64,000 bases of DNA from Paludisphaera borealis (lineage in GTDB: Bacteria; Planctomycetota; Planctomycetia; Isosphaerales; Isosphaeraceae), in the NCBI RefSeq assembly GCF_001956985.1, contig NZ_CP019082.1, forward strand, positions 4,650,001 through 4,714,000, given 5' to 3'. A model generated the notes under the pieces. The model had not been told where the DNA came from, did no database searches, and saw only the letters and a program-made list of their open reading frames with translations. This document shows, in pieces, positions 53,033-63,982 of this stretch (positions are counted from its first letter, which is position 1; each line of letters opens with the position of its first letter). A program made the position numbers and the translations under genes.

Positions 53033-53194
53033 GCGCCCCTCTCGACGAGACGACCCTTGCATCGGCCGCGATTGACAAACCGGGCGGAATGTGGATAACA
53101 CGTTCGCCGCGGGATGCGTCCGGCTCCGTGCGCCCAAGGATGGGCCGCCGGCGCCGCGTTTCGGGCCGCATCAGGGTTGTTCCAGGGAGGGTGG

Positions 53195-54721
53195 ATGTCG
53201 ACCTTCGGACTCGATTTTCCCGGTCTGACGCCGGGACGCCTGCTCTCCTGGCTGCGCGCCCGCCGCAAGGCGCTGGCCGGCCGATCGGCGACGCTTCGGT
53301 GGAGCCTGGTCGCTCTCGCCGTCGGCGGACTCTCGCTGGCCGCCTACCTCGCCGCCTCGGCCGTCGCGCCGGGCGAGCGGTCCTACCTCGGAGCGGGCCG
53401 CCGCTACTCGTCCGACGACGTCCACAAGATCAAGAAGACGCTCGACAAGCTGCGGATCGAGTATCAGATCATCGACGACCGCCGCGTCGCGGTGGCCGCG
53501 AACAATCTCGACGCCGCCGGAGCCGCTGTCGCCAAGCTCGAACTCGGCCCGCGCACGCTTACCGAGATTCGGGACGAGGCCGCCAAGGATCGATCTTGGT
53601 TGGATTCGCCCCGCGACAGGGAAGTTCGCGAGGAGCGCGAGCAGGCTCAGGTTCTCGAATCGCTGATCAACGGCCTGCCCGGCATCGAAGGCTCGTTCGT
53701 CAAGATCACGCGTCCCAAGCAGCGTATCGGGCTTCGGTCGGTCGTTCGCCCCATGGCGTTCGTCCAGTTGGAGACCGAGGGAGGCCGCGAACTGCCGGCC
53801 GGCGTCATCGAGTCGATCACCTCGATCCTCACCGTCGCCGAGCAGGGCCTGACGCCGCACGCGATCACGGTCATGGACCGATCGGGCCGCCCCTACCTCG
53901 ACGCCGGCAATCCGGCCCTCAACGCGCAGTCGTCCACCCGCGCCCGTCAGGAAGACCTGCGCCGGCAGATCCTCGAAAAGCTCGACTGGATCACCGGAAT
54001 CCGGGTCGACGTGAAGCTCGCGGCCGTCGAGCCCGTCGACCAATCGGAGCCGAAGCCGGTCGAGACCAAGACGAGCCCGAACTCCGGTTCGCCTCAACCC
54101 GCGCCGAACATCGCGGTCTCGCTCAACCGGGCGCTCTCGATCGATCCCGACCCGGCCGACGCCGCGTCTCCGGCCGCGAGTCCGACCTCGCCTGTCCCGG
54201 CCGCGCCGAAACTTCGCGGTCGTGTCCTGGTCAACGTGCCGCGGAGCTACTATTACAACGCCAGCTACATGCCGGGCGGTCGCGAACCGTCGCAGGACGA
54301 CCTCCGTGCCCTGATGGGGCGCACCGAGACGCACATTCGCAACGCGGTGGAGCTGGTCGTCCTTGAGAGCCCGGCGGTCGCCTGGGAGCCACCCTCGATC
54401 GAGATGATCCAGGACGAGATGCCCGACCGGATGCCGGCGACGGCCGCCGGCGGCAAGTCGCGCCGGCTGGTCAACGACTGGGCGACGGCCGGAGCCGCGG
54501 GCGCCGCCGCCGCCGCGCTGGTGGCGGTTGGAACCTGGGTCTTCGGCAGCCGACAACCGGTCCGCCGTTCCGAGACGTCTCGGGGCTCGCTGCGCTATCA
54601 CCGGGGCTCGCCCGCGACGCCGCCGCCCACCGAACGGGTTCTCGAATTCGTCCGCCGCAACCCCGAGGCCGCCTTCAGCGTGCTCAACCGATGGACGAGC
54701 CAGGGAGGAGGACGATCATGA
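53195..54721 (+). CDS. fliF: Flagellar MS-ring protein FliF
   Basis: A 508-residue protein from the ATG at 53195 (AGGGAGG before it). The first membrane helix is about residues 38-58 (WSLVALAVGGLSLAAYLAAS), and a second lies near 435-455 (AAGAAAAALVAVGTWVFG). The YscJ/FliF-type ring-building part has SDDVHKIKKTLDKLRIEYQI and SLINGLPGIEGSFVKITRP. The C-terminal VLEFVRRNPEAAFSVLNRW is the FliG-binding tail. FliF forms the membrane ring that houses the export gate. The TGA overlaps the fliG start (ATGA). The middle has a long Pro/Ser-rich linker, and overall similarity looks low. Confidence 0.85.
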   Translation: MSTFGLDFPGLTPGRLLSWLRARRKALAGRSATLRWSLVALAVGGLSLAAYLAASAVAPGERSYLGAGRRYSSDDVHKIKKTLDKLRIEYQIIDDRRVAVAANNLDAAGAAVAKLELGPRTLTEIRDEAAKDRSWLDSPRDREVREEREQAQVLESLINGLPGIEGSFVKITRPKQRIGLRSVVRPMAFVQLETEGGRELPAGVIESITSILTVAEQGLTPHAITVMDRSGRPYLDAGNPALNAQSSTRARQEDLRRQILEKLDWITGIRVDVKLAAVEPVDQSEPKPVETKTSPNSGSPQPAPNIAVSLNRALSIDPDPADAASPAASPTSPVPAAPKLRGRVLVNVPRSYYYNASYMPGGREPSQDDLRALMGRTETHIRNAVELVVLESPAVAWEPPSIEMIQDEMPDRMPATAAGGKSRRLVNDWATAGAAGAAAAALVAVGTWVFGSRQPVRRSETSRGSLRYHRGSPATPPPTERVLEFVRRNPEAAFSVLNRWTSQGGGRS

Positions 54722-55323
54722 ACCAGACGACCCCGCCGCGAACCCGACATACCGCCGAAACGTCGCACGCCGAGGAACGATCGACCGACGACGACCGCGA
54801 CGCCGGCGCTTCGCCCGCGTCGATCTCGCCGCTCCGCAAGGCGGCGATCGTGCTCGTCAGCCTCGAACAGTCGCTCTCCTCGCAGCTCTTGACGCACCTC
54901 GACCGCGAGGCCGTCGAGGCCGTGACCTGGGAGATCGCCCGAATGGACCGCGTCGATCCCGACGAGCAGGCGGTCGTGCTCGAAGAGTTCCTCGGAATGG
55001 GTCTGCGGCGGCTTTGCTTCGTCTTCGACGACCTGCTGCGGATGGACGACCGCGAGGTTCGCGCGGGCTTTCACGCCGACGACTCCGAAGCCTGGGCGCT
55101 CGCCCTGGCCGGCGCCGCCGCTCCCGTGCGGGCCAAGGTCCTCGGCGCGCTGAACGCGTCGGCCTCCCAGGCGCTTCAGCGCCACCTCGAAAACCTCGGG
55201 CCGTTCCGCCTCTCCGACACCGAGGTCGCGCAGGCCGAGATCACCGAACGGTTTCGCGGCCTCTACGATCAGGGGACGCTGGACCTCCCCGACCCCAGCG
55301 GTCGTGAAGAAGTGCTCGTCTGA
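54718..55323 (+). CDS. fliG: Flagellar switch protein FliG, short form
   Basis: Only 201 residues, against about 330 usually. After a Thr/Asp-rich start, LRKAAIVLVSLEQSLSSQLL and EAVEAVTWEIARMDRVDPDE form the FliG N-terminal domain that holds FliF. The rest, FVFDDLLRMDDREVRAGF, AWALALAGAAAPVRAKVLGA and LENLGPFRLSDTEVAQAEI, matches the C-terminal torque domain. The middle domain with the EHPQ motif that contacts FliM is not there. GGAGGAGG before the ATG supports the start; it overlaps fliF by four bases. Confidence 0.75.
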   Translation: MNQTTPPRTRHTAETSHAEERSTDDDRDAGASPASISPLRKAAIVLVSLEQSLSSQLLTHLDREAVEAVTWEIARMDRVDPDEQAVVLEEFLGMGLRRLCFVFDDLLRMDDREVRAGFHADDSEAWALALAGAAAPVRAKVLGALNASASQALQRHLENLGPFRLSDTEVAQAEITERFRGLYDQGTLDLPDPSGREEVLV

Positions 55324-55369
55324 CGACGCCCCGATGAAACCGGCTTCGCGATCCAGGAAGGAACCCCGC

Positions 55370-55912
55370 ATGTCCCACGCCAAGCTTTTGCCCATGCTCG
55401 CCGCGGGACTGCTGGCGGCGTTCGCCCTCGTCGCGTCCCCCGCGCCGGTCGCGGGTCAGGAGCCCTCGGCCGCGGCCGACGAGGCGCCCCGGACGGCTCG
55501 GCCCACTCTCGCGCGTCCGCGACGCGAGGCGTCGACCGTCGCCAAGGGGTCTCAGGGTTGGTGGACGGGAACCGCCGCGATGGTCGTGATCCTGGGCGCT
55601 GCGGGCGTCCTCTGCATCGCCGTGAGACGGCAGGCCGAAGGGGCGACCGGCGGACGGCTGAAGGTCCTGGGACGCGTTAACCTGCCCCCAAAACACGCGG
55701 TCTTCCTCGTCAAAGCCGGCGGGCGAACCCTGCTGATCGGCACCGGACCGCAAGGCGCGCCGTCGCTGCTGGGCGAACTCGACGACGATGACGACGAAGC
55801 TTCCGCGCTCGCTTCGTCCCCCGTCGTCGCTAGGAGCGATTCCGGGATGCGATCGGCGCGGCCGGTTCACGCCGCGCCGCGTATCGACGTGCGGCTGGGA
55901 GACGAATCGTGA
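55370..55912 (+). CDS. fliO: Flagellar export protein FliO-like
   Basis: About 180 residues: a cleavable-looking or anchoring N-terminal helix (LLPMLAAGLLAAFALVASP), a Pro/Ala linker, a second helix (GTAAMVVILGAAGVLCIAV), then GGRLKVLGRVNLPPKHAVFL with VKAGGRTLLIGTGPQGAPSL, the short FliO cytoplasmic domain. FliO assists assembly of the FliP ring. AGGAAGG before the ATG at 55370 supports the start. Its stop overlaps the fliP GTG (GTGA). Confidence 0.8.
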   Translation: MSHAKLLPMLAAGLLAAFALVASPAPVAGQEPSAAADEAPRTARPTLARPRREASTVAKGSQGWWTGTAAMVVILGAAGVLCIAVRRQAEGATGGRLKVLGRVNLPPKHAVFLVKAGGRTLLIGTGPQGAPSLLGELDDDDDEASALASSPVVARSDSGMRSARPVHAAPRIDVRLGDES

Positions 55913-56730
55913 GAAACCTTGCGTCGCTTCGCTCGCCGAGAATCGCCGTCCTCGCGCTCCTGCCGGCGCTGCTTCTGATCGTCCTCGCCGCACCATGCCA
56001 GGCACAGGAAAAGGCGACTGCGACCGCGCCCGGGGGGGCGAACGCGACGCTCATCGAGCCAGGCGACGCGATGCGGACCGTGCAGTCGGTCGTGCTCTTC
56101 GGGTTGGTCTCGCTGGCGCCGGTCGCGCTCTTGATGATCACTCCGTTCGTGCGGATCAACATCGTTCTGGTGTTGCTTCGCCAGGCGCTGGGGAGCCCGC
56201 AGGTACCGGGCAACCAGGTGTTGATGGCGCTGTCGTTGTTGCTGAGCGCGCTGGTGATGCGGCCCGTCGGCGAGCGGGTCTACCACGACGCGGTCGAGCC
56301 CTACATGGCGGGCAAGGCCAACGCGATGGACTCGTGGAACGTGGGCGCGAAACCGATCAAGACGTTCATGGTCGAGCAGATCCTGAGGACGAACCACCAG
56401 GACTATCTCTGGTCGATCTACCAGCACTCGGCCGAGTCGAAAGCCGGGCTGGCCGACCCGGAAGAACCCGATCAGTTCCCGCTCGGCGTGGTCGCGCCAG
56501 CGTTCATCCTGAGTGAGCTGACGACGGCCTTGATGATCGGCTTTTACTTGTATTTGCCGTTCCTGATCATCGACCTGGTGGTGTCGTCGGTGCTGGCGGC
56601 GATGGGGCTTTTCATGCTGCCGCCGACCCTGGTGGCGATGCCCGTGAAGCTGATCGTCTTCGTGCTGATCGACGGCTGGCTGCTGGTGGCCGAGATGCTG
56701 CTTTCCGGCTTCTCGGTCTCGGGCGCTTGA
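55909..56730 (+). CDS. fliP: Flagellar export gate protein FliP
   Basis: A 273-residue protein with a GTG start overlapping fliO and a signal peptide (LALLPALLLIVLAAPCQAQE). FliP signatures: ALLMITPFVRINIVLVLLRQ, PGNQVLMALSLLLSALVM, VVAPAFILSELTTALMIGFY and LPPTLVAMPVKLIVFVLIDG. FliP forms the pentameric core of the export gate with FliQ and FliR. Confidence 0.95.
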   Translation: MRNLASLRSPRIAVLALLPALLLIVLAAPCQAQEKATATAPGGANATLIEPGDAMRTVQSVVLFGLVSLAPVALLMITPFVRINIVLVLLRQALGSPQVPGNQVLMALSLLLSALVMRPVGERVYHDAVEPYMAGKANAMDSWNVGAKPIKTFMVEQILRTNHQDYLWSIYQHSAESKAGLADPEEPDQFPLGVVAPAFILSELTTALMIGFYLYLPFLIIDLVVSSVLAAMGLFMLPPTLVAMPVKLIVFVLIDGWLLVAEMLLSGFSVSGA

Positions 56731-56751
56731 ATTCGAGAAAGGGGTTCGAGC

Positions 56752-57018
56752 GTGGATATCAGTCATGTGACGGATTGGACCCGCGAGGCGCTCCGGATGA
56801 CGCTCTTGCTGGGAGGGCCGCTGCTGGCCTCGGCCCTGCTGGTCGGGCTGATCGTGAACATCCTTCAGACCCTCACGCAGTTGAACGAGCCGGTCGTCGG
56901 TCTGGTGCCCCGGCTGGTGACGGTGATCGCCGTCTTGCTCCTGCTCGTCCCCTGGCTCCTGAGCCGTTGGATGAGCTTCACGGTCGACCTGATCGGCTCG
57001 ATTCCCGACCTGCTTTGA
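56752..57018 (+). CDS. fliQ: Flagellar export gate protein FliQ
   Basis: An 88-residue protein from a GTG at 56752 with two long membrane helices: TLLLGGPLLASALLVGLIVN, then QTLTQLNEP, then VTVIAVLLLLVPWLLSRWM. The ILQTLTQLNEP turn is the FliQ hallmark. It lies 21 bases after fliP. Confidence 0.93.
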   Translation: MDISHVTDWTREALRMTLLLGGPLLASALLVGLIVNILQTLTQLNEPVVGLVPRLVTVIAVLLLLVPWLLSRWMSFTVDLIGSIPDLL

Positions 57019-57056
57019 CTCACAGGTGAGCGGGAGGCGAGAGTCTTCTGTCTTCG

Positions 57057-57812
57057 ATGCAAGGTTCGCCGTTCGACGCCTGGTTCACCGCAAATACGGC
57101 GGTCTGGCTGCTGGTGACGGCCCGGGCGGCCGGCGTCTGCTTCACCGCGCCGGTGCTGGCCGCGCCGGGGCTCGACATGCGGTTTCGGGTCGTCCTGGCG
57201 GTTCTGCTCGGCGCGTGGCTGGCCCCCGTGGTGACGCCCCTGGTCGTGTCGCCCGAATCGGGGCGCGCGATCGTCTGGCTGGTTCTCAACGAACTGTTGA
57301 TCGGCGCTTTGATCGGCTGGTCGGCGTCGCTGATCGTGGCGGCAGCGCGGCAGGCCGGGGACCTTGTGGCCGCGCAGTCGGGGATGTCGACCTCGGCTTT
57401 GTTCGATCCCGATACGGGCGAGGAATTGACCGCGCTCGGTCACTTGTACGGCCTGATCGCGCTGGCGACGTTCCTGGCCGTCGACGGTCCGCTGGTGATG
57501 GCCGAGGCGATGATCGAGAGCTTCAAGACGATCCCGGCGGGTCGGCTCGTCTTCGAGCGGGCCACGGCGGACTTGGTCTTCGGCCAGGCGGCCGACGCCC
57601 TGGCCCTGGCGGTTCGCGCCGCGGCGCCGCCGGCCGTGGCGTTGGCGGCGGCGGGCGTGGCGCTGGGCTGGCTGGGCCGGCTGGCGCCGAGCGTGCCGTT
57701 GATGACGCTCTCGCTGCCGATCCGCGCGGCGCTCGGCGTCTTGCTCGTATCGGCCAGTCTCGCCACGTTGATCGTCTGCCTGACGAACGCCTGGAGCGGC
57801 TGGGGCGTCTGA
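57057..57812 (+). CDS. fliR: Flagellar export gate protein FliR
   Basis: A 251-residue protein with six hydrophobic segments: ARAAGVCFTAPVLAAPGLDM, LNELLIGALIGWSASLIVAA, LVAAQSGMSTSALFDPDTGE, VDGPLVMAEAMIESFKTIP and ALALAVRAAAPPAVALAAAG, in the family order. It completes the FliPQR core. The last part is slightly divergent and short. Confidence 0.93.
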   Translation: MQGSPFDAWFTANTAVWLLVTARAAGVCFTAPVLAAPGLDMRFRVVLAVLLGAWLAPVVTPLVVSPESGRAIVWLVLNELLIGALIGWSASLIVAAARQAGDLVAAQSGMSTSALFDPDTGEELTALGHLYGLIALATFLAVDGPLVMAEAMIESFKTIPAGRLVFERATADLVFGQAADALALAVRAAAPPAVALAAAGVALGWLGRLAPSVPLMTLSLPIRAALGVLLVSASLATLIVCLTNAWSGWGV

Positions 57813-57846
57813 CGGTCGAAGCCGTTCTCTTCGCAGGATCGTGAGC

Positions 57847-58878
57847 ATGTCGGAAGATCGCACTCAGCCCGCCTCCAAACGCCGTCGCCTGCTCGCCCGC
57901 GAGGAGGGGCAGGTCGTTCACAGCCCCGAGCTGACGGCGGCGGTCGGCTGGCTGACGGCCGTCGTGGTGCTGGGCGTCTGGGGGCAGGACCTCGCGGGCG
58001 TCTTGATCGAGCTGGCGCGGGCCCCGCTGGTGCAGCCCCTGGCGTCGTCGAGTGATCCCGTCGAGCTGGCGGGACGGATTCGCGGCGACGTTCTGCGCGT
58101 GGCGGCGCCGTTGGGGATGATCCTCGGCGGCTTTCTCGTGGGCGCGGCGGGTGCTCATCAGGCGCAGGTTCGGGGGCTGTGGGCGCCGGCCTTGATCGCG
58201 CCCGACGTCTCGCGGCTCTGGCGGATCGGCCGGGGAGGGGGGCTTTCGGGCCGGTTCGAGCGGAGCGTCTGGTCGATCGTCAAGGTGGTGATCCTGGCGT
58301 CCGTCGCCTGGTGGGGGATTCGGTCGCAGTGGAGCGCCTTGCAGGGGCTCAGCCTGCTCGATTTCCCGACGGCCGCGCAATCGGCGATGAGCGTGCTGCT
58401 GGGCCCCATACGGGTGCTGGCGGTCTTGATGGTCGTCGTCGGGCTGGTCGATTACGGGCTCCGCTTCGCGCGGTTCGAGTCGATGCTCCGGACGACGCCC
58501 GACGAACAACGCGAGGATCAGAAGGCGGTCGAGGGGGACCCGAGGGTCCGCGCGTCGCGGCGTCGGCTGGTGCAGTCGTGGCGCGACGCGACCCCGGAGC
58601 TGCTCACCGGCGCGACCCTGATTTTGCACGGCGACGCGGGCCTGACGGTCGTGCTGAGCGGCGGTCCGCCGCCGCGGCGGATCGGCGTTCGCGCGGCGGC
58701 CCAGGGGAAGGCGGGGAACTCGCTGCGCCGGGCCGCGAGCCAGGCGCGGATTCCGTCGTGCGAGGCGCCGCAGCTCGCCCTCCGGCTGGCCTCGCAGCCG
58801 AATACGGCGTCGGCCCGGTCGGCGATCGTCGACCCGTTGCTCCTGTCCCAGCTTCGGAGCGTCTGGCCGGCGTCGTGA
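57847..58878 (+). CDS. flhB: FlhB-like export switch protein lacking the NPTH motif
   Basis: About 343 residues. The start SKRRRLLAREEGQVVHSPEL and four membrane helices (residues ~30-215) are FlhB-like, and the linker TPDEQREDQKAVEGDPRVRA is diagnostic. In the cytoplasmic domain the family's NPTH, where the protein cuts itself to switch substrates, is replaced by HGDA (nt 58627-58638, in TLILHGDAGLTVVLSG). The later GNSLRRAASQARIPSCEAPQ keeps the family's helix. So self-cleavage should not occur. Start at 57841 (GTG) is possible. Confidence 0.85.
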   Translation: MSEDRTQPASKRRRLLAREEGQVVHSPELTAAVGWLTAVVVLGVWGQDLAGVLIELARAPLVQPLASSSDPVELAGRIRGDVLRVAAPLGMILGGFLVGAAGAHQAQVRGLWAPALIAPDVSRLWRIGRGGGLSGRFERSVWSIVKVVILASVAWWGIRSQWSALQGLSLLDFPTAAQSAMSVLLGPIRVLAVLMVVVGLVDYGLRFARFESMLRTTPDEQREDQKAVEGDPRVRASRRRLVQSWRDATPELLTGATLILHGDAGLTVVLSGGPPPRRIGVRAAAQGKAGNSLRRAASQARIPSCEAPQLALRLASQPNTASARSAIVDPLLLSQLRSVWPAS

Positions 58879-59176
58879 GCGAACCTCGGAACCCCCCGGC
58901 CGGACGGCTTTCGGACTGGACAGTTTTCGGCGTCGGAAGTAAGGTTCCCGCACACATCACACGGGCCGGCTCCGGCTCGTTTCGAGCAAGCCGGTCGTGG
59001 GGTCTCGCGAGTTCGGGGGGCCCGGTAAGTCAGCGAAGTAGAGGAACTCCCTCGGGAGGTCCGGACGCCCGCGCCTGTCCGAATCAGGACGCCGGCCGGA
59101 CCGACGGCGCGGGGGATCGGGTTTTCGCGTCGTCATCGGGTCCATCGTCATTTTTGGGATTGCTGGAGAGCCACGG
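58879..59176. other. 298-base gap between flhB and flhA
   Basis: No ORF, terminator or known regulatory element was recognised. GCCGGCTCCGGC and similar GC-rich short palindromes are present. GGAGAG about eight bases before 59177 is the flhA ribosome-binding site. The gap breaks the otherwise tight cluster, so flhA may have its own promoter. Confidence 0.5.
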
Positions 59177-61435
59177 ATGCCTCCTTCGACGTCGAATTCC
59201 TTCGCCTCGCTCTCGGGGCGAGCCACGGGCCTGATCCTGCCGATCACGATCGTCGGGGCGGTGCTCGTCTTCGTCGTGCCGATCCCGCCGGCGATCCTCG
59301 ACGTCTTGCTCGCGGGCAACCTGACGCTCGCCGTGCTCGTCCTGCTGACGACCCTGGCGATCCGCACGCCGCAGGAATTCAGCGCCTTTCCGACGATCCT
59401 TTTGACCACCACGCTGACGCGGTTGGTGCTGAACGTCGCCACCACGCGTCTCGTGCTGACGCGGGGCGGCGAGCATCGGCTGGAGGCGGCCGGGCAGGTC
59501 ATTCGATCGTTCGGCGAGTTCGTGGCCGGCGACCAGGTGCTCGTCGGCGTGATCCTGTTCTCGATCCTGGTCGTGATCCAGTTCGTCGTCATCACCCGGG
59601 GCGCCACCCGCATCAGCGAGGTCGCCGCCCGGTTCATGCTCGACGGTCTGCCGGGACGGCAGATGGCCATCGACGCCGACCTTCACGCCGGCCTGATCGA
59701 CCAGCGCCAGGCCCACGCTCGGCGCGAGCAGGTCTACCGTCAGGCCGACTTCTTCGGTGCGATGGACGGCGCCGGCAAGTTCGTCCGCGGCGACGCCGTC
59801 GCGGGCGTCGTCATCCTGATGGTCAACATCTGCGGCGGCCTGTTCCTGGGCGTCGTGAACTACGGCATGAGCCTGGGGGAAGCGGTCGACGTCTTCACGA
59901 AGCTGACCATCGGCGACGGCCTGGTCAGCCAGGTGCCGGCGTTCTTGATCTCGCTGGCCGCCGGCCTGATCGTCACGCGGTCGTCGTCCGAGACCGACAT
60001 CGGCCGCGACGTGGTCGGCCAGCTCACGAGCAAACCCGGCGTGCTCGGCACGTCGGCCGTTTTTCTGGGCCTGCTGGCGTTCACGCCGCTCCCCAAGCTG
60101 CCGCTCTTGACGCTCGCCGCCGCGCTCGGCGGCCGGGCGATCTACCTGAGCACCGGCGGCCGCGGCGAACAGACCGAACATGAGGCCGACTCCGAACCGG
60201 TCGCCTCGTCGAGCAATCGACGGACCGATCGCGGGTCGTCGAGTCGGGGCGACGAGCCGTCGCATCGGCGATCGACCGAGCACGCGGCCTCGCGGCCGAC
60301 CGAATCGACGCCGACCGAGACGCTGCGGGTCACGGCCGACGCTCCTTCCGAAGATATGCAAGACCTGCTGCACGTCGATCTGCTTGAGCTTGAGATCGGC
60401 TACCGGCTGATCAGCCTCGCCGATCCGACCCGGGGCGGGAATCTCCTCGAACGGCTGCGGACCGTGCGCCAGAACGTGGCCCGCGAGCTGGGCCTGATCG
60501 TCCCGCAGGTGCGGATTCACGACGAGATCGGGCTGGCCCCGCATGACTATCGCGTTAAGATCCGGGGCACGATCGTGGGGCAGGGGGTCGCCTACGCCGG
60601 TCGGCTGCTGGCGATCCCGCCGGCGGGGATGACCGAGCCTCCGGAGGGCCGCGAGGCCGTCGACCCGACGACCGGCCAGGCGGCGGTCTGGATTCACGCC
60701 GAGGGGCGCGAAGTGGCCGAGCTGGCGGGCTGCAAGATTCTCGACGCGGCGGCGGTGGTCGCCGCGCACTTCGGCGAGATCGTCCGCAACCACGCCGACG
60801 AGCTGCTGACCCGCGACCAGATCGAACGCCTCCTCGACCGCGTCCGAACCTCGGCGCCCACGCTGGCCGGCGAGGTCGTGCCGGGGTTGTTGCGGCCGGG
60901 CGAGCTTCAGCGGCTGTTGCAGAATTTACTCCGCGAACAGGTGAGCATCCGCGACCTGGAGACGATCCTCGAAACCCTGGCCGTCCACGCCGGCAAGACC
61001 AAGGACATCGCCGCGCTGACAGAGCAGGTGCGCCAGAGCCTGGCGCGACAGATCACCGAAAGCCATCGCTCGGCCGACGGCCGGCTGCGGGTCGTGACGC
61101 TCTCGCAGGCGCTCAACACGCGGCTCTCGGTCGTGGCGGGGCAGGACGATACGCATCCGGCCGAGGCGCTGGGCGACGAGACGGTTCGAAACATCCTCCG
61201 CGCGGCGGCCTCGGCCGTCGGCGCGCTCGTCGACGCGGGCCTGCCGCCGATCGTCTTGACGTCGGCCACGGCCCGCGCGGTGCTCAAGGATCTGACCCGG
61301 GTCGACCTGCCCGGGCTGGTCATCCTGAGCCAGCGGGAAATCCCCCGCGATACACCGGTCGAGGTGCTCGGCACGGTGGTCGAAGAGGCTCCCGAGGAAA
61401 TCGGCGCGTTCACCACGACCGAAGCGTTCGCGTGA
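59177..61435 (+). CDS. flhA: Flagellar export gate protein FlhA
   Basis: A 752-residue protein. FlhA/FHIPEP marks: TRLVLNVATTRLVLTRG, FVVITRGATRISEVAARFML, DADLHAGLIDQRQAHARREQ, ADFFGAMDGAGKFVRGDAVA, and the last helices VPAFLISLAAGLIVTR and LGTSAVFLGLLAFTPLP. The cytoplasmic domain (from about residue 390) has ELEIGYRLISLADPTRGGNL, the IGLAPHDYRVKIRG strand, and LLREQVSIRDLETILETLAV. A ~55-residue Ser/Arg-rich, probably disordered linker joins the two. All essential parts are present. Confidence 0.95.
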   Translation: MPPSTSNSFASLSGRATGLILPITIVGAVLVFVVPIPPAILDVLLAGNLTLAVLVLLTTLAIRTPQEFSAFPTILLTTTLTRLVLNVATTRLVLTRGGEHRLEAAGQVIRSFGEFVAGDQVLVGVILFSILVVIQFVVITRGATRISEVAARFMLDGLPGRQMAIDADLHAGLIDQRQAHARREQVYRQADFFGAMDGAGKFVRGDAVAGVVILMVNICGGLFLGVVNYGMSLGEAVDVFTKLTIGDGLVSQVPAFLISLAAGLIVTRSSSETDIGRDVVGQLTSKPGVLGTSAVFLGLLAFTPLPKLPLLTLAAALGGRAIYLSTGGRGEQTEHEADSEPVASSSNRRTDRGSSSRGDEPSHRRSTEHAASRPTESTPTETLRVTADAPSEDMQDLLHVDLLELEIGYRLISLADPTRGGNLLERLRTVRQNVARELGLIVPQVRIHDEIGLAPHDYRVKIRGTIVGQGVAYAGRLLAIPPAGMTEPPEGREAVDPTTGQAAVWIHAEGREVAELAGCKILDAAAVVAAHFGEIVRNHADELLTRDQIERLLDRVRTSAPTLAGEVVPGLLRPGELQRLLQNLLREQVSIRDLETILETLAVHAGKTKDIAALTEQVRQSLARQITESHRSADGRLRVVTLSQALNTRLSVVAGQDDTHPAEALGDETVRNILRAAASAVGALVDAGLPPIVLTSATARAVLKDLTRVDLPGLVILSQREIPRDTPVEVLGTVVEEAPEEIGAFTTTEAFA

Positions 61436-61479: not shown

Positions 61480-62625
61480 ATGGAGATGTCGATGAACGCG
61501 AGGACGTACCGAGGCAAGACGATGAAGGAGGCGCTGGCGCGGGTGCGGCGGGACCTCGGCGGCGACGCCGTGATCCTCGCGGCCCGCGAGGTTCGCCGCC
61601 GCCGTCTCTTCGGCCTCGGTCCGCGCGGCGGCATCGAGGTCGAGGCGTCGTTGACGATGCCCGCCGACCCGCTCGCCGCGGCCGTCCGAGCGCCGGCGTC
61701 GGCCGTGAGCCGCGCTTCGGCTTCCGCTTCGTCGCCGCCGACCGGCCTGGGTTCGGAGCTGGGGCGGATTCATACGATGGTCGAGACGCTCAGCCGCCAG
61801 GGGAGGCTCGACCACTGGATGCTCGACCTGCCGAGCGAGCTGACGCCGATCTACGGCCGCCTGCTGGAAGCCGACGTGCCGGAGCTGCTGGCCCGCCAAC
61901 TCGTCCGCATGGTCGCCGATGCGGCCACGCCCGAAGACCTGGCGACTCCCGGCGACGCGCTTCGAGCCGTCCGCGAGGCGCTCGAAGACGCGCTGGCGAT
62001 CGCCCCGCCGATCCGGGCGGTGTCGGGGGCGCGGCGGGTCGTCGCGCTCGTTGGACCGACGGGGGTCGGCAAGACGACGACGGCCGCCAAGCTGGCGGCG
62101 CGGTTCAAGTTGCGGCAAGGGCTGCGCGTCGGCCTGCTGACGGTCGACACCTACCGGATCGCGGCCATCGAACAATTGAAGACCTACGCCGACATCATCG
62201 ACCTGCCGCTCGCCGTGGGGAGAGACCCCGAGTCGGCCCGGCAGGCGATCGACGAGCTGGGCGACGTCGACCTCGTGCTGGTCGACACCGCGGGCCGGAG
62301 TCCCAGGGACGAGCCCAAGATCCAAGAGCTGGGCGAGCTGCTGGCCCGGATTCGGCCCGACGAGGTCCATCTGGTGCTGAGCGCGGCGACGTCGCAGCGG
62401 AGCCTTCGAGCCGCCGCCGACCAGTTCGCGCCGGCGCGTCCCGACCGCTTGCTCTTGACCAAGCTCGACGAAGCCGAGAGTCTGGGCGCGCTCGCCGCGA
62501 TCCTCGGGCGGGCGGATCGTCCCGTCAGCTATCTGACGACCGGTCAATCCGTCCCCGACGACATCGAGGAGGCCGACCGAAGCCGGTTGGCCAGGCTGAT
62601 TCTGGGGGAAGAGTCGATCGCGTGA
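61480..62625 (+). CDS. flhF: Flagellar SRP-like GTPase FlhF
   Basis: A 381-residue protein. N-terminal domain: RTYRGKTMKEALARVRRDLG; the NG domain has VALVGPTGVGKTTTAAKLAA (P-loop), VDTYRIAAIEQLKTYADI, DLVLVDTAGRSPRD and LLLTKLDEAESLG. FlhF sets flagellar position and number, together with FlhG. The N-terminal region is shorter than in gammaproteobacteria. The start may be 61480, 61486 or 61492. It is followed after 48 bases by the short DQAxxLR protein. Confidence 0.94.
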   Translation: MEMSMNARTYRGKTMKEALARVRRDLGGDAVILAAREVRRRRLFGLGPRGGIEVEASLTMPADPLAAAVRAPASAVSRASASASSPPTGLGSELGRIHTMVETLSRQGRLDHWMLDLPSELTPIYGRLLEADVPELLARQLVRMVADAATPEDLATPGDALRAVREALEDALAIAPPIRAVSGARRVVALVGPTGVGKTTTAAKLAARFKLRQGLRVGLLTVDTYRIAAIEQLKTYADIIDLPLAVGRDPESARQAIDELGDVDLVLVDTAGRSPRDEPKIQELGELLARIRPDEVHLVLSAATSQRSLRAAADQFAPARPDRLLLTKLDEAESLGALAAILGRADRPVSYLTTGQSVPDDIEEADRSRLARLILGEESIA

Positions 62626-62673
62626 ACCGCGAGCGATCGCGACGCGCGGCGGGTTTCCAGAGGAGGAGGGGCG

Positions 62674-62886
62674 ATGGCGGACCAGGCGGAGAACCTGAGA
62701 CGGCTGGTGCAGGCCCAACGCGACTGGAAGGAGCTGGCGGACGAACCGCCGGCCCCACGCCCGGTCGAGGGGGGCGGCGGCCGTCGAGCTGCCGGCGAAG
62801 TCGCCGACTCGTGGAAACCGTTGCGGAACGCGGGCTCGCTGCTGGGCCTTGGAACACGACGGAAGACCGGCCGGATCGCGAGCTAG
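62674..62886 (+). CDS. 70-residue protein with FlhG-type DQAxxLR motif
   Basis: MADQAENLRRLVQAQRDW opens the protein. DQAxxLR at residues 3-9 is the N-terminal motif by which FlhG (YlxH/FleN) binds FlhF and stimulates its GTPase. In FlhG it precedes a MinD-type ATPase with a KGGVGKT loop; here nothing like that follows, only a Pro/Gly-rich stretch (ADEPPAPRPVEGGGGRR) and a basic end (LGLGTRRKTGRIAS). AGGAGGAGG before the ATG is strong. It occupies the exact slot between flhF and fliA where flhG usually sits. The function as an FlhF activator is inferred. Confidence 0.75.
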   Translation: MADQAENLRRLVQAQRDWKELADEPPAPRPVEGGGGRRAAGEVADSWKPLRNAGSLLGLGTRRKTGRIAS

Positions 62887-62942: not shown

Positions 62943-62972
62943 ATGCTCGGCGGATTATTCGGATTCTTCTGA
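62943..62972 (+). CDS. Possible nine-residue hydrophobic peptide (MLGGLFGFF)
   Basis: AAGGAGG about seven bases before the ATG is one of the best ribosome-binding sites in the window, and the frame ends after nine codons at TGA 62970-62972. It lies 56 bases after the DQAxxLR gene, in a 319-base gap before fliA. It might be a leader or a small membrane peptide, or chance. Confidence 0.35.
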   Translation: MLGGLFGFF

Positions 62973-62982
62973 CGACGAGGTT

Positions 62983-63010
62983 CAAGCTGGTTGGTCGGGT
63001 CGTCCGATAA
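62983..63010 (+). promoter_or_regulatory. Possible sigma-28 promoter before fliA
   Basis: TCCGATAA (63003-63010) is one base off the sigma-28 -10 box GCCGATAA. CAAG (62983-62986) 16 bases earlier is a weak match to TAAA. It lies about 195 bases before fliA, and could let FliA control its own gene. The remainder of the gap 62887-63205 shows nothing else. Confidence 0.35.
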
Positions 63011-63205: not shown

Positions 63206-63982
63206 ATGTCAACCAAGGTGGATGTGGATGTAACCGAACTCTGGCGGGAGTTCAAGGAACACCCCACCACGGAAATGCGGAATCAGTTGGTCGAGCGTTA
63301 CTTGGCCCTGGTCAAGTACAACGCCGAGCGCATCTGGCAGCGATTGCCCGAGGGGGTGGATCTCGACGATCTCATCTCCGCGGGAGTCTTCGGCCTGATG
63401 GACGCGATCGACGCCTTCGACTTGACGCGCGGCGTCAAGTTCGAGACCTACTGCGTTCCGCGAATCCGAGGGGCGATGCTCGACGAACTTCGGACCATGG
63501 ACTGGGTACCCCGCCTGGTCCGCTCCAAGGCCACCAAGATGGAAGAGGCCCGCAAGGAGCTCGAAGCCCGGCACGGCCGACCGCCGACCGGACACGAACT
63601 CGCCGAGCGGCTCGGCCTGCCGATGGAAGAGTTCGAGAAGATGGCGTCGGACGCCAACGCCGTGGGGCTCATCAGCCTCAACAAGAAGTGGTACGAGACC
63701 GACAGTTACAAGGACGTCCGCGAGATCGACATTCTCGAGGACAAGAAGGGCGAAGACCCCACCCACAGGCTGCAGCGCAAAGACCTGATGCGGATGGTGA
63801 CCAAGGGGCTCAACCGCAACGAACGTCTTATTATTATTCTGTATTATTATGAAGAGCTGACGATGAAAGAGATCGGCGCCACGCTCGACCTGAGCGAGTC
63901 GCGCGTGTCTCAAATGCACTCGTCGATCATCCAGCGGCTTCAGTCCCAGCTCTCCCAGCGCCGACCCGAATTCGGCACCTGA
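63206..63982 (+). CDS. fliA: Flagellar sigma factor sigma-28 (FliA/WhiG family)
   Basis: A 258-residue sigma factor with regions 2, 3 and 4: RYLALVKYNAERIWQRLPEG, DLDDLISAGVFGLMDAIDAF and VKFETYCVPRIRGAMLDELR (region 2), RPPTGHELAERLGLPMEEFE (3), and ERLIIILYYYEELTMKEIGA with LSESRVSQMHSSIIQRLQSQ (4). It directs transcription of late flagellar genes. CGGAGG before the ATG supports the start. The codons for LIIILYYYEE (63826-63855) are AT-ending, unlike the rest. Confidence 0.93.
   Translation: MSTKVDVDVTELWREFKEHPTTEMRNQLVERYLALVKYNAERIWQRLPEGVDLDDLISAGVFGLMDAIDAFDLTRGVKFETYCVPRIRGAMLDELRTMDWVPRLVRSKATKMEEARKELEARHGRPPTGHELAERLGLPMEEFEKMASDANAVGLISLNKKWYETDSYKDVREIDILEDKKGEDPTHRLQRKDLMRMVTKGLNRNERLIIILYYYEELTMKEIGATLDLSESRVSQMHSSIIQRLQSQLSQRRPEFGT

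Follow-up and report, generated by a model that had tools for sequence, protein, structure and literature searches.

Paludisphaera borealis, a member of the Isosphaeraceae, carries between flhF and fliA a gene for a 70-residue protein that is probably a remnant of flhG, namely a stand-alone helix that would activate FlhF in the service of a flagellar export gate without a filament. We refer to it as mini-FlhG. The gene lies in a stretch of 64,000 nucleotides of the forward strand of NZ_CP019082.1, which is referred to as the window. Its relevant features are as follows.

53114..61435, + strand: fliF, a short fliG (210 aa), fliO, fliP, fliQ, fliR, flhB and flhA, i.e., MS-ring and export gate, in the same cluster (Pfam)
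61480..62625, + strand: flhF, the presumed partner, with GTPase motifs intact (TIGR03499, E 1.5e-60; alignment)
62660..62673, + strand: probable ribosome-binding region, GAGGAGGAGGGG plus spacer (sequence)
62674..62886, + strand: mini-FlhG gene, 70 aa (ORF, slot conservation, motif conservation, codon usage, selection test)
62680..62700, + strand: FlhF enhancer-helix motif DQAENLR, codons 3-9 (invariant residues; AlphaFold helix)
62806..62883, + strand: variable tail of mini-FlhG (shuffle test; low pLDDT)
62981..63009, + strand: promoter-like element TTCAAG-N17-CCGATA before fliA (pattern in 32 of 37 family loci)
63206..63982, + strand: fliA/whiG-type sigma factor (TIGR02479, E 2.6e-79)

The translation of the window ORF begins MADQAENLRRLVQAQRDWK, and GAGGAGGAGGGG, just 5' of the ATG, is a strong ribosome-binding sequence. 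GC3 is 0.81 in the mini-FlhG gene, versus 0.89 in flhF and 0.83 in fliA. The original prediction, made from the DNA letters, had recognized in this protein the N-terminal DQAxxLR motif of FlhG, placed in the usual flhG slot and followed by no ATPase domain. That description holds: relatives keep the motif in the same slot, the flanking genes match TIGR03499 upstream and TIGR02479 downstream, and the product yields no ATPase match in either Pfam or NCBIfam. For a MinD/ParA domain in particular, Pfam returned nothing, its best match being a Myb-like domain at E 0.1, below the cut-off of that model, and NCBIfam gave no match at E<=1. A complete flhG elsewhere in the genome, which the prediction had named as a counter-indication, was not found at E<=1e-8 when the 7.65-Mb assembly (three contigs of 7,497,544, 111,833 and 42,519) was searched with the FlhG of a relative. 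The sole match at that threshold is to a protein of 29% identity encoded on contig C2, which has the length of plasmid pPALBO1; that plasmid is reported in excerpts of PMC5352709 to bear a ParA gene. In a single-sequence AlphaFold model, residues 2-22 of mini-FlhG form a helix, with mean pLDDT values of 83 for residues 1-10 and 87 for residues 11-20; for the whole model the mean is 65.8, and little outside the helix is useful. ALK kinase was discarded as a PDB relative of mini-FlhG, its matches reaching only E 0.83-1 and falling outside the helix.

As to the neighbors, the PDB relatives of the flhF product are 8r9r and 2px0/2px3/3syn, of which 3syn is a B. subtilis FlhF entry with the activator helix bound, and the FlhA of the window matches TIGR01398 at E 6.7e-226, just below the cut-off of that model. 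The element before fliA was sought as a pattern of the type YTCAAG-N17-CCGAT[AG], with the spacer also permitted to be 12-18 long and the first C to be replaced by a different base; the element resembles a sigma-28 promoter. A 9-codon frame, MLGGLFGFF (62943-62972), with a good ribosome-binding sequence, lies between mini-FlhG and fliA. On visual comparison, the DNA of this region is alike across genus g1, but a single frame is not preserved.

The distribution of this form was examined in a sample of 45 Isosphaeraceae genomes (family f1). FlhF was found at E<=1e-30 in 41 of them, and in all 41 either the flhF-fliA region or FlhG was inspected. These genomes comprise 15 with a mini-FlhG (59-78 aa), 24 with a full FlhG, one with an intermediate form of 273 aa (G017, in which the switch-motif patterns found nothing) and one with a decayed mini form (G004). 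The M-x-DQAxxLR start is present in 40 of the 41, the decayed form being the exception; that is, the motif is conserved in relatives at the flhF-X-fliA position, as the original prediction had asked. In G027, FlhG and flhF are on different contigs, and in G034 and G015 the locus is interrupted by contig ends. The mini forms fall in five groups: g1+g7, g14, g19, G025 and G020.

In all 15 mini forms, residues D3, Q4, A5, L8 and R9 are invariant, and the codons used for them number 2, 2, 2, 4 and 6, respectively. In five independent pairs, codons 3-9 show 2.0 non-synonymous changes over 80.8 sites versus 8.0 synonymous changes over 24.2 (p 8.6e-5), a ratio of 0.07, and codons 2-20 show 22 over 211.8 versus 31 over 73.2 (Fisher p 1.2e-8). 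Judged by these substitution counts, the enhancer helix is under purifying selection. Conservation outside codons 2-20 is poor; within them, codons 10-19 are also mostly conserved in the g1+g7 clade. Because the same start and motif recur in the same slot of other genomes, because the motif residues are invariant despite varying codons, and because codons 2-20 are under purifying selection, the mini-FlhG ORF is confirmed, at the level of sequence comparison, as a real gene and more than a chance frame.

The C-terminal part was compared with the C-terminal helix of full FlhG using 3000 shuffles for each of the 15 mini forms, counting those that were as good. The helix stands out in G025 (0 shuffles) and in G023 (1). 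Given that 15 tests were made, it is borderline in G011 (11), and it is at most suggestive in G035 (65), G059 (84) and G020 (127); the other nine mini forms show none by this test (>=286 of 3000). Among these nine are the window protein, whose apparent amphipathic-helix remnant is without statistical support (419 of 3000), and G028, which looked similar by eye and failed the test (1986 of 3000). A conserved C-terminal membrane helix was accordingly dropped as a general feature of mini-FlhG; it holds in some forms only.

The history of the two forms was traced on a tree of RpoB, the sole marker, for 40 genomes; G034, G061, G036, G008 and G064 are missing from it, and an additional set of ORFs (r0), possibly antisense, was left out. 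Changes between mini and full FlhG were counted over 36 rows (15 mini, 21 full), with the decayed G004 and other states, four rows in all, set aside. The tree requires five changes (bootstrap 5%-95% range 5-5), of which at least three are forced by well-supported branches. A tree in which the 15 mini rows are constrained together is rejected with p-AU 1e-80, a value to be read knowing that the group was chosen with the tree already in view. Mini groups stand beside lineages with full FlhG: g14 beside g17/g5 (weakly, 87/63), g19 beside g8 (98/92, well supported) and G025 beside G006 (94/99). Because of these five changes on the RpoB tree, we consider that the ATPase domain was probably lost repeatedly while the helix was retained.

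What was lost had apparently already changed. The second lysine of GKGGVGK, in Walker A, is Thr in 25 of 25 Isosphaeraceae FlhG proteins (the 24 full ones and the intermediate). In a wider FlhG set this position is usually Lys, and Thr, Ala or Val also occur there in other planctomycete families. Replacement of the Walker A lysine by Thr is expected to abolish ATP binding. Since full FlhG in this family lacks the lysine, the lost domain is unlikely to have been a functional ATPase limiting flagellar number, and on this point the original prediction, which had described precisely such an ATPase as separated from FlhF activation, has to be revised. Several planctomycete genomes in which the Walker A lysine is replaced or FlhG is shrunken do have flagellin; loss of the lysine is therefore not a mere result of loss of the filament. 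The likely route would thus begin with loss of the lysine in the FlhG of the family, giving a pseudo-ATPase; in that state the domain would become dispensable, and it would then be lost in separate lineages, some of which also kept the C-terminal helix. In family f11, FlhG frames of only 219-243 codons carry DQAxxLR and no normal P-loop (L281, L291 and L289, from G095, G220 and G184).

If the helix acts on FlhF, the two might be expected to degrade together. In G004, the helix of the decayed mini form reads DPAESLG, and its FlhF deviates at 11 of 92 columns that are otherwise invariant, more than any other of the 33 rows (the next has 6 of 98), with DTPGAS in place of DTAGRS. This count leaves out G010, G036, G027, G018 and G032, and G014, G031 and G034 are outside its set. 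In G024, FlhF (L334:4374-5549, - strand) is divergent, matching TIGR03499 at E 9.4e-18 (65 bits, where the cut-off is 174); it lacks the DTYRIAA and DTAGR motifs and is possibly a pseudo-GTPase, and beside it the helix motif was not found. Genome G016 has FlhA and FliA, no FlhF above threshold, and no helix between FlhA and FliA. Thus FlhF and the helix appear degraded together in G004 and G024, and these cases, though few, all point in the expected direction.

Three other explanations have to be weighed. One is that mini-FlhG is a dying pseudogene, in which the first codons of flhG stay open by chance after deletion of the remainder. The variable length and sequence of the tails would fit this, as would the genuine decay in G004 and the statement, in excerpts of PMC5352709, that the family has few flagellar genes and lacks motile swarmers. 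A decaying frame would hardly keep five residues of the motif unchanged throughout the 15 forms, with varying codons, nor give the non-synonymous to synonymous ratio seen in codons 3-9, nor reach the same outcome on several branches. Motif invariance and the substitution test lead us to reject both a chance motif and a pseudogene, the latter being very unlikely. Somewhat less improbable, if still unlikely, is that the helix was retained for a role other than GTPase stimulation, e.g., as a FliG/FliF scaffold or a membrane adaptor. Conservation of codons 10-19 in the g1+g7 clade and of the C-terminal helix in G025 and G023, and perhaps in G011, are in line with such a role. Against it, the invariant residues belong to the motif to which stimulation of FlhF is ascribed (PMC12826062, in excerpts), and the helix decays with FlhF in G004 and is absent beside the broken FlhF of G024.

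The remaining explanation concerns direction: a single old loss might have given rise to the mini form, and full FlhG might then have been regained by transfer in several lineages. Parsimony counts are without direction and so leave room for this. A tree built from the 21 full FlhG sequences, however, has 12 of 18 splits in common with RpoB, so that FlhG mostly tracks RpoB. The conflicting splits have bootstrap values of 23-55 on the FlhG side, except for one inside genus g17 at 99; in the RpoB tree used for this comparison, which was of the quick kind, the splits without an FlhG counterpart include two at SH-aLRT 95 and 88 and one within a genus at 96. Given the low bootstrap of the conflicts, re-gain by transfer is not indicated. 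Moreover, the Thr substitution is common to all 24 full copies, those read beside flhF occupy the same slot, and full-length FlhG, altered P-loops included, is found at 74 of the best 80 FlhF loci listed across bacteria. Specifically, among these best 80 listed, 69 have DQAxxLR and a P-loop in one frame, 5 have DQAxxLR with an altered P-loop, 3 have a MinD-like protein without a motif match, 2 have none (the flank of one of them is just 402 bases long) and 1 is a mini form (L171). An old loss followed by regain is therefore highly improbable, and we prefer loss over regain as the direction suggested by these comparisons.

Loci outside the Isosphaeraceae were also inspected, namely 80 of 112 FlhF matches, hand-picked for spread. 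A DQAxxLR-type motif with a P-loop is found at 36 of these, and at 16 the motif lies in a frame of varied length in which the P-loop pattern is unmatched. At the other 28, the motif pattern is unmatched in the region adjacent to flhF, although 3 of them show QQAxHL[RQ]. Flagellin is encoded in 26 of the 28 genomes without a helix adjoining flhF; flagellated planctomycetes can therefore have FlhF without a neighboring helix, and the helix would not be universally needed. A stand-alone mini form was not convincingly present at any of the 80 loci; in G241, a frame of 58 codons lies 2 kb away from flhF and was taken as chance. A small frame resembling a membrane protein (M[AG]RxYxxxL...) lies between flhF and fliA in G196, G190, G253, G172, G092 and G077 (L290, L266, L276, L264, L280 and L272).

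The original prediction had placed mini-FlhG in a system controlling a polar flagellum. The part of it describing an FlhG derivative with the helix kept and the ATPase gone stands; the flagellum does not, as flagellin was matched in 0 of 45 Isosphaeraceae genomes. In the comparison set, which consists of genomes with FlhF from other families of the class, flagellin is found in 66 of 80. Rod/hook proteins (PF00460) have no match in the P. borealis genome and are matched in 3 of 45 in the family, and the export ATPase FliI is above its curated cut-off in 0 of 45. Matches to FliI below that cut-off occur in 42 of 45, and are probably F-type ATPases, because the same kind arises in control genomes. 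FlhA is present in 42 of 45 genomes and the FliM/N C-terminal domain in 34 of 45, P. borealis included in both cases. Motility in Isosphaera pallida is by gliding. Excerpts of PMC5352709 describe P. borealis PX4T as non-motile spheres and report that described Isosphaeraceae do not make motile swarmer cells, and excerpts of two further species papers describe non-motile cells (PMC12402505, PMC12603096). The former of these two, PMC12402505, reports motility and phototaxis for Isosphaera pallida. Since genes for the MS-ring and export gate occur without flagellin, any function of the helix would be at a flagellar gate and ring that lack a filament. That such a gate acts in secretion is a guess.

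Loss of the MinD-like domain would thus have left the N-terminal enhancer helix, with its DQAxxLR motif, as a small protein of its own beside flhF. This helix would dock on the GTP-bound FlhF homodimer and supply Q4 as a catalytic glutamine, switching FlhF off as the helix does within full FlhG, and the FlhF cycle would serve the export gate and MS-ring rather than a swimming flagellum. We infer translation, FlhF binding, GTPase stimulation and the role at a filament-less gate and MS-ring from the genomic evidence. In model bacteria, the helix is reported to dock on FlhF with a co-catalytic glutamine (PMC12826062; PMC11236974). In Bacillus subtilis, according to excerpts of PMC12327844, FlhG D65A, which does not hydrolyze ATP, leaves hook distribution without discernible change, removal of the membrane sequence lowers puncta by about 10%, and Q8A comes close to the deletion phenotype. 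The natural deletions of the ATPase agree with these mutants, in that the helix would be the part worth keeping.

Mini-FlhG resembles FlhG/YlxH, a MinD-type ATPase with an enhancer helix, in its N-terminal DQAxxLR helix and its slot after flhF; it differs in lacking the ATPase domain and, in the P. borealis form, a significant C-terminal membrane helix. The full FlhG of other Isosphaeraceae has the same helix in the same slot of sister genomes, but keeps the MinD-like domain, with Thr for the Walker A lysine in 24 of 24. Pseudomonad FleN, also of the FlhG family and a neighbor of flhF, is the mirror case, retaining the ATPase and missing DQAxxLR (PMC12713375, in excerpts). Abby and Rocha described incomplete flagellar loci, i.e., replicons with part of the type III core genes, nearly all flagellar in origin (PMC3459982, in excerpts); unlike these, the Isosphaeraceae set is family-wide and includes FlhF and, in part, an FlhG reduced to the enhancer helix. 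According to a 2025 review, flhF is consistently encoded together with flhG (PMC12826062, in excerpts); in searches of the open-licence PMC literature, neither an enhancer helix standing alone nor a planctomycete FlhG turned up.

On the question of what the ATPase of FlhG does beyond carrying the FlhF-activating helix, one family seems to have run the ATPase deletion experiment several times, retaining the helix, and because relatives lost the ATPase several times independently, these repeats suggest that it is the helix that counts. FlhF activation would thereby be separable, and could be tested using a partner only some 20 residues long. With the scales evenly poised, we propose that FlhF and a free activator helix, with no MinD-type ATPase, may form a minimal two-component switch of the SRP-type GTPase kind, controlling assembly or placement of a filament-less export gate that is kept, for secretion or another task, across a family not known to swim. 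Taken together, the finding points to a conserved filament-less flagellar export gate in such planctomycetes.
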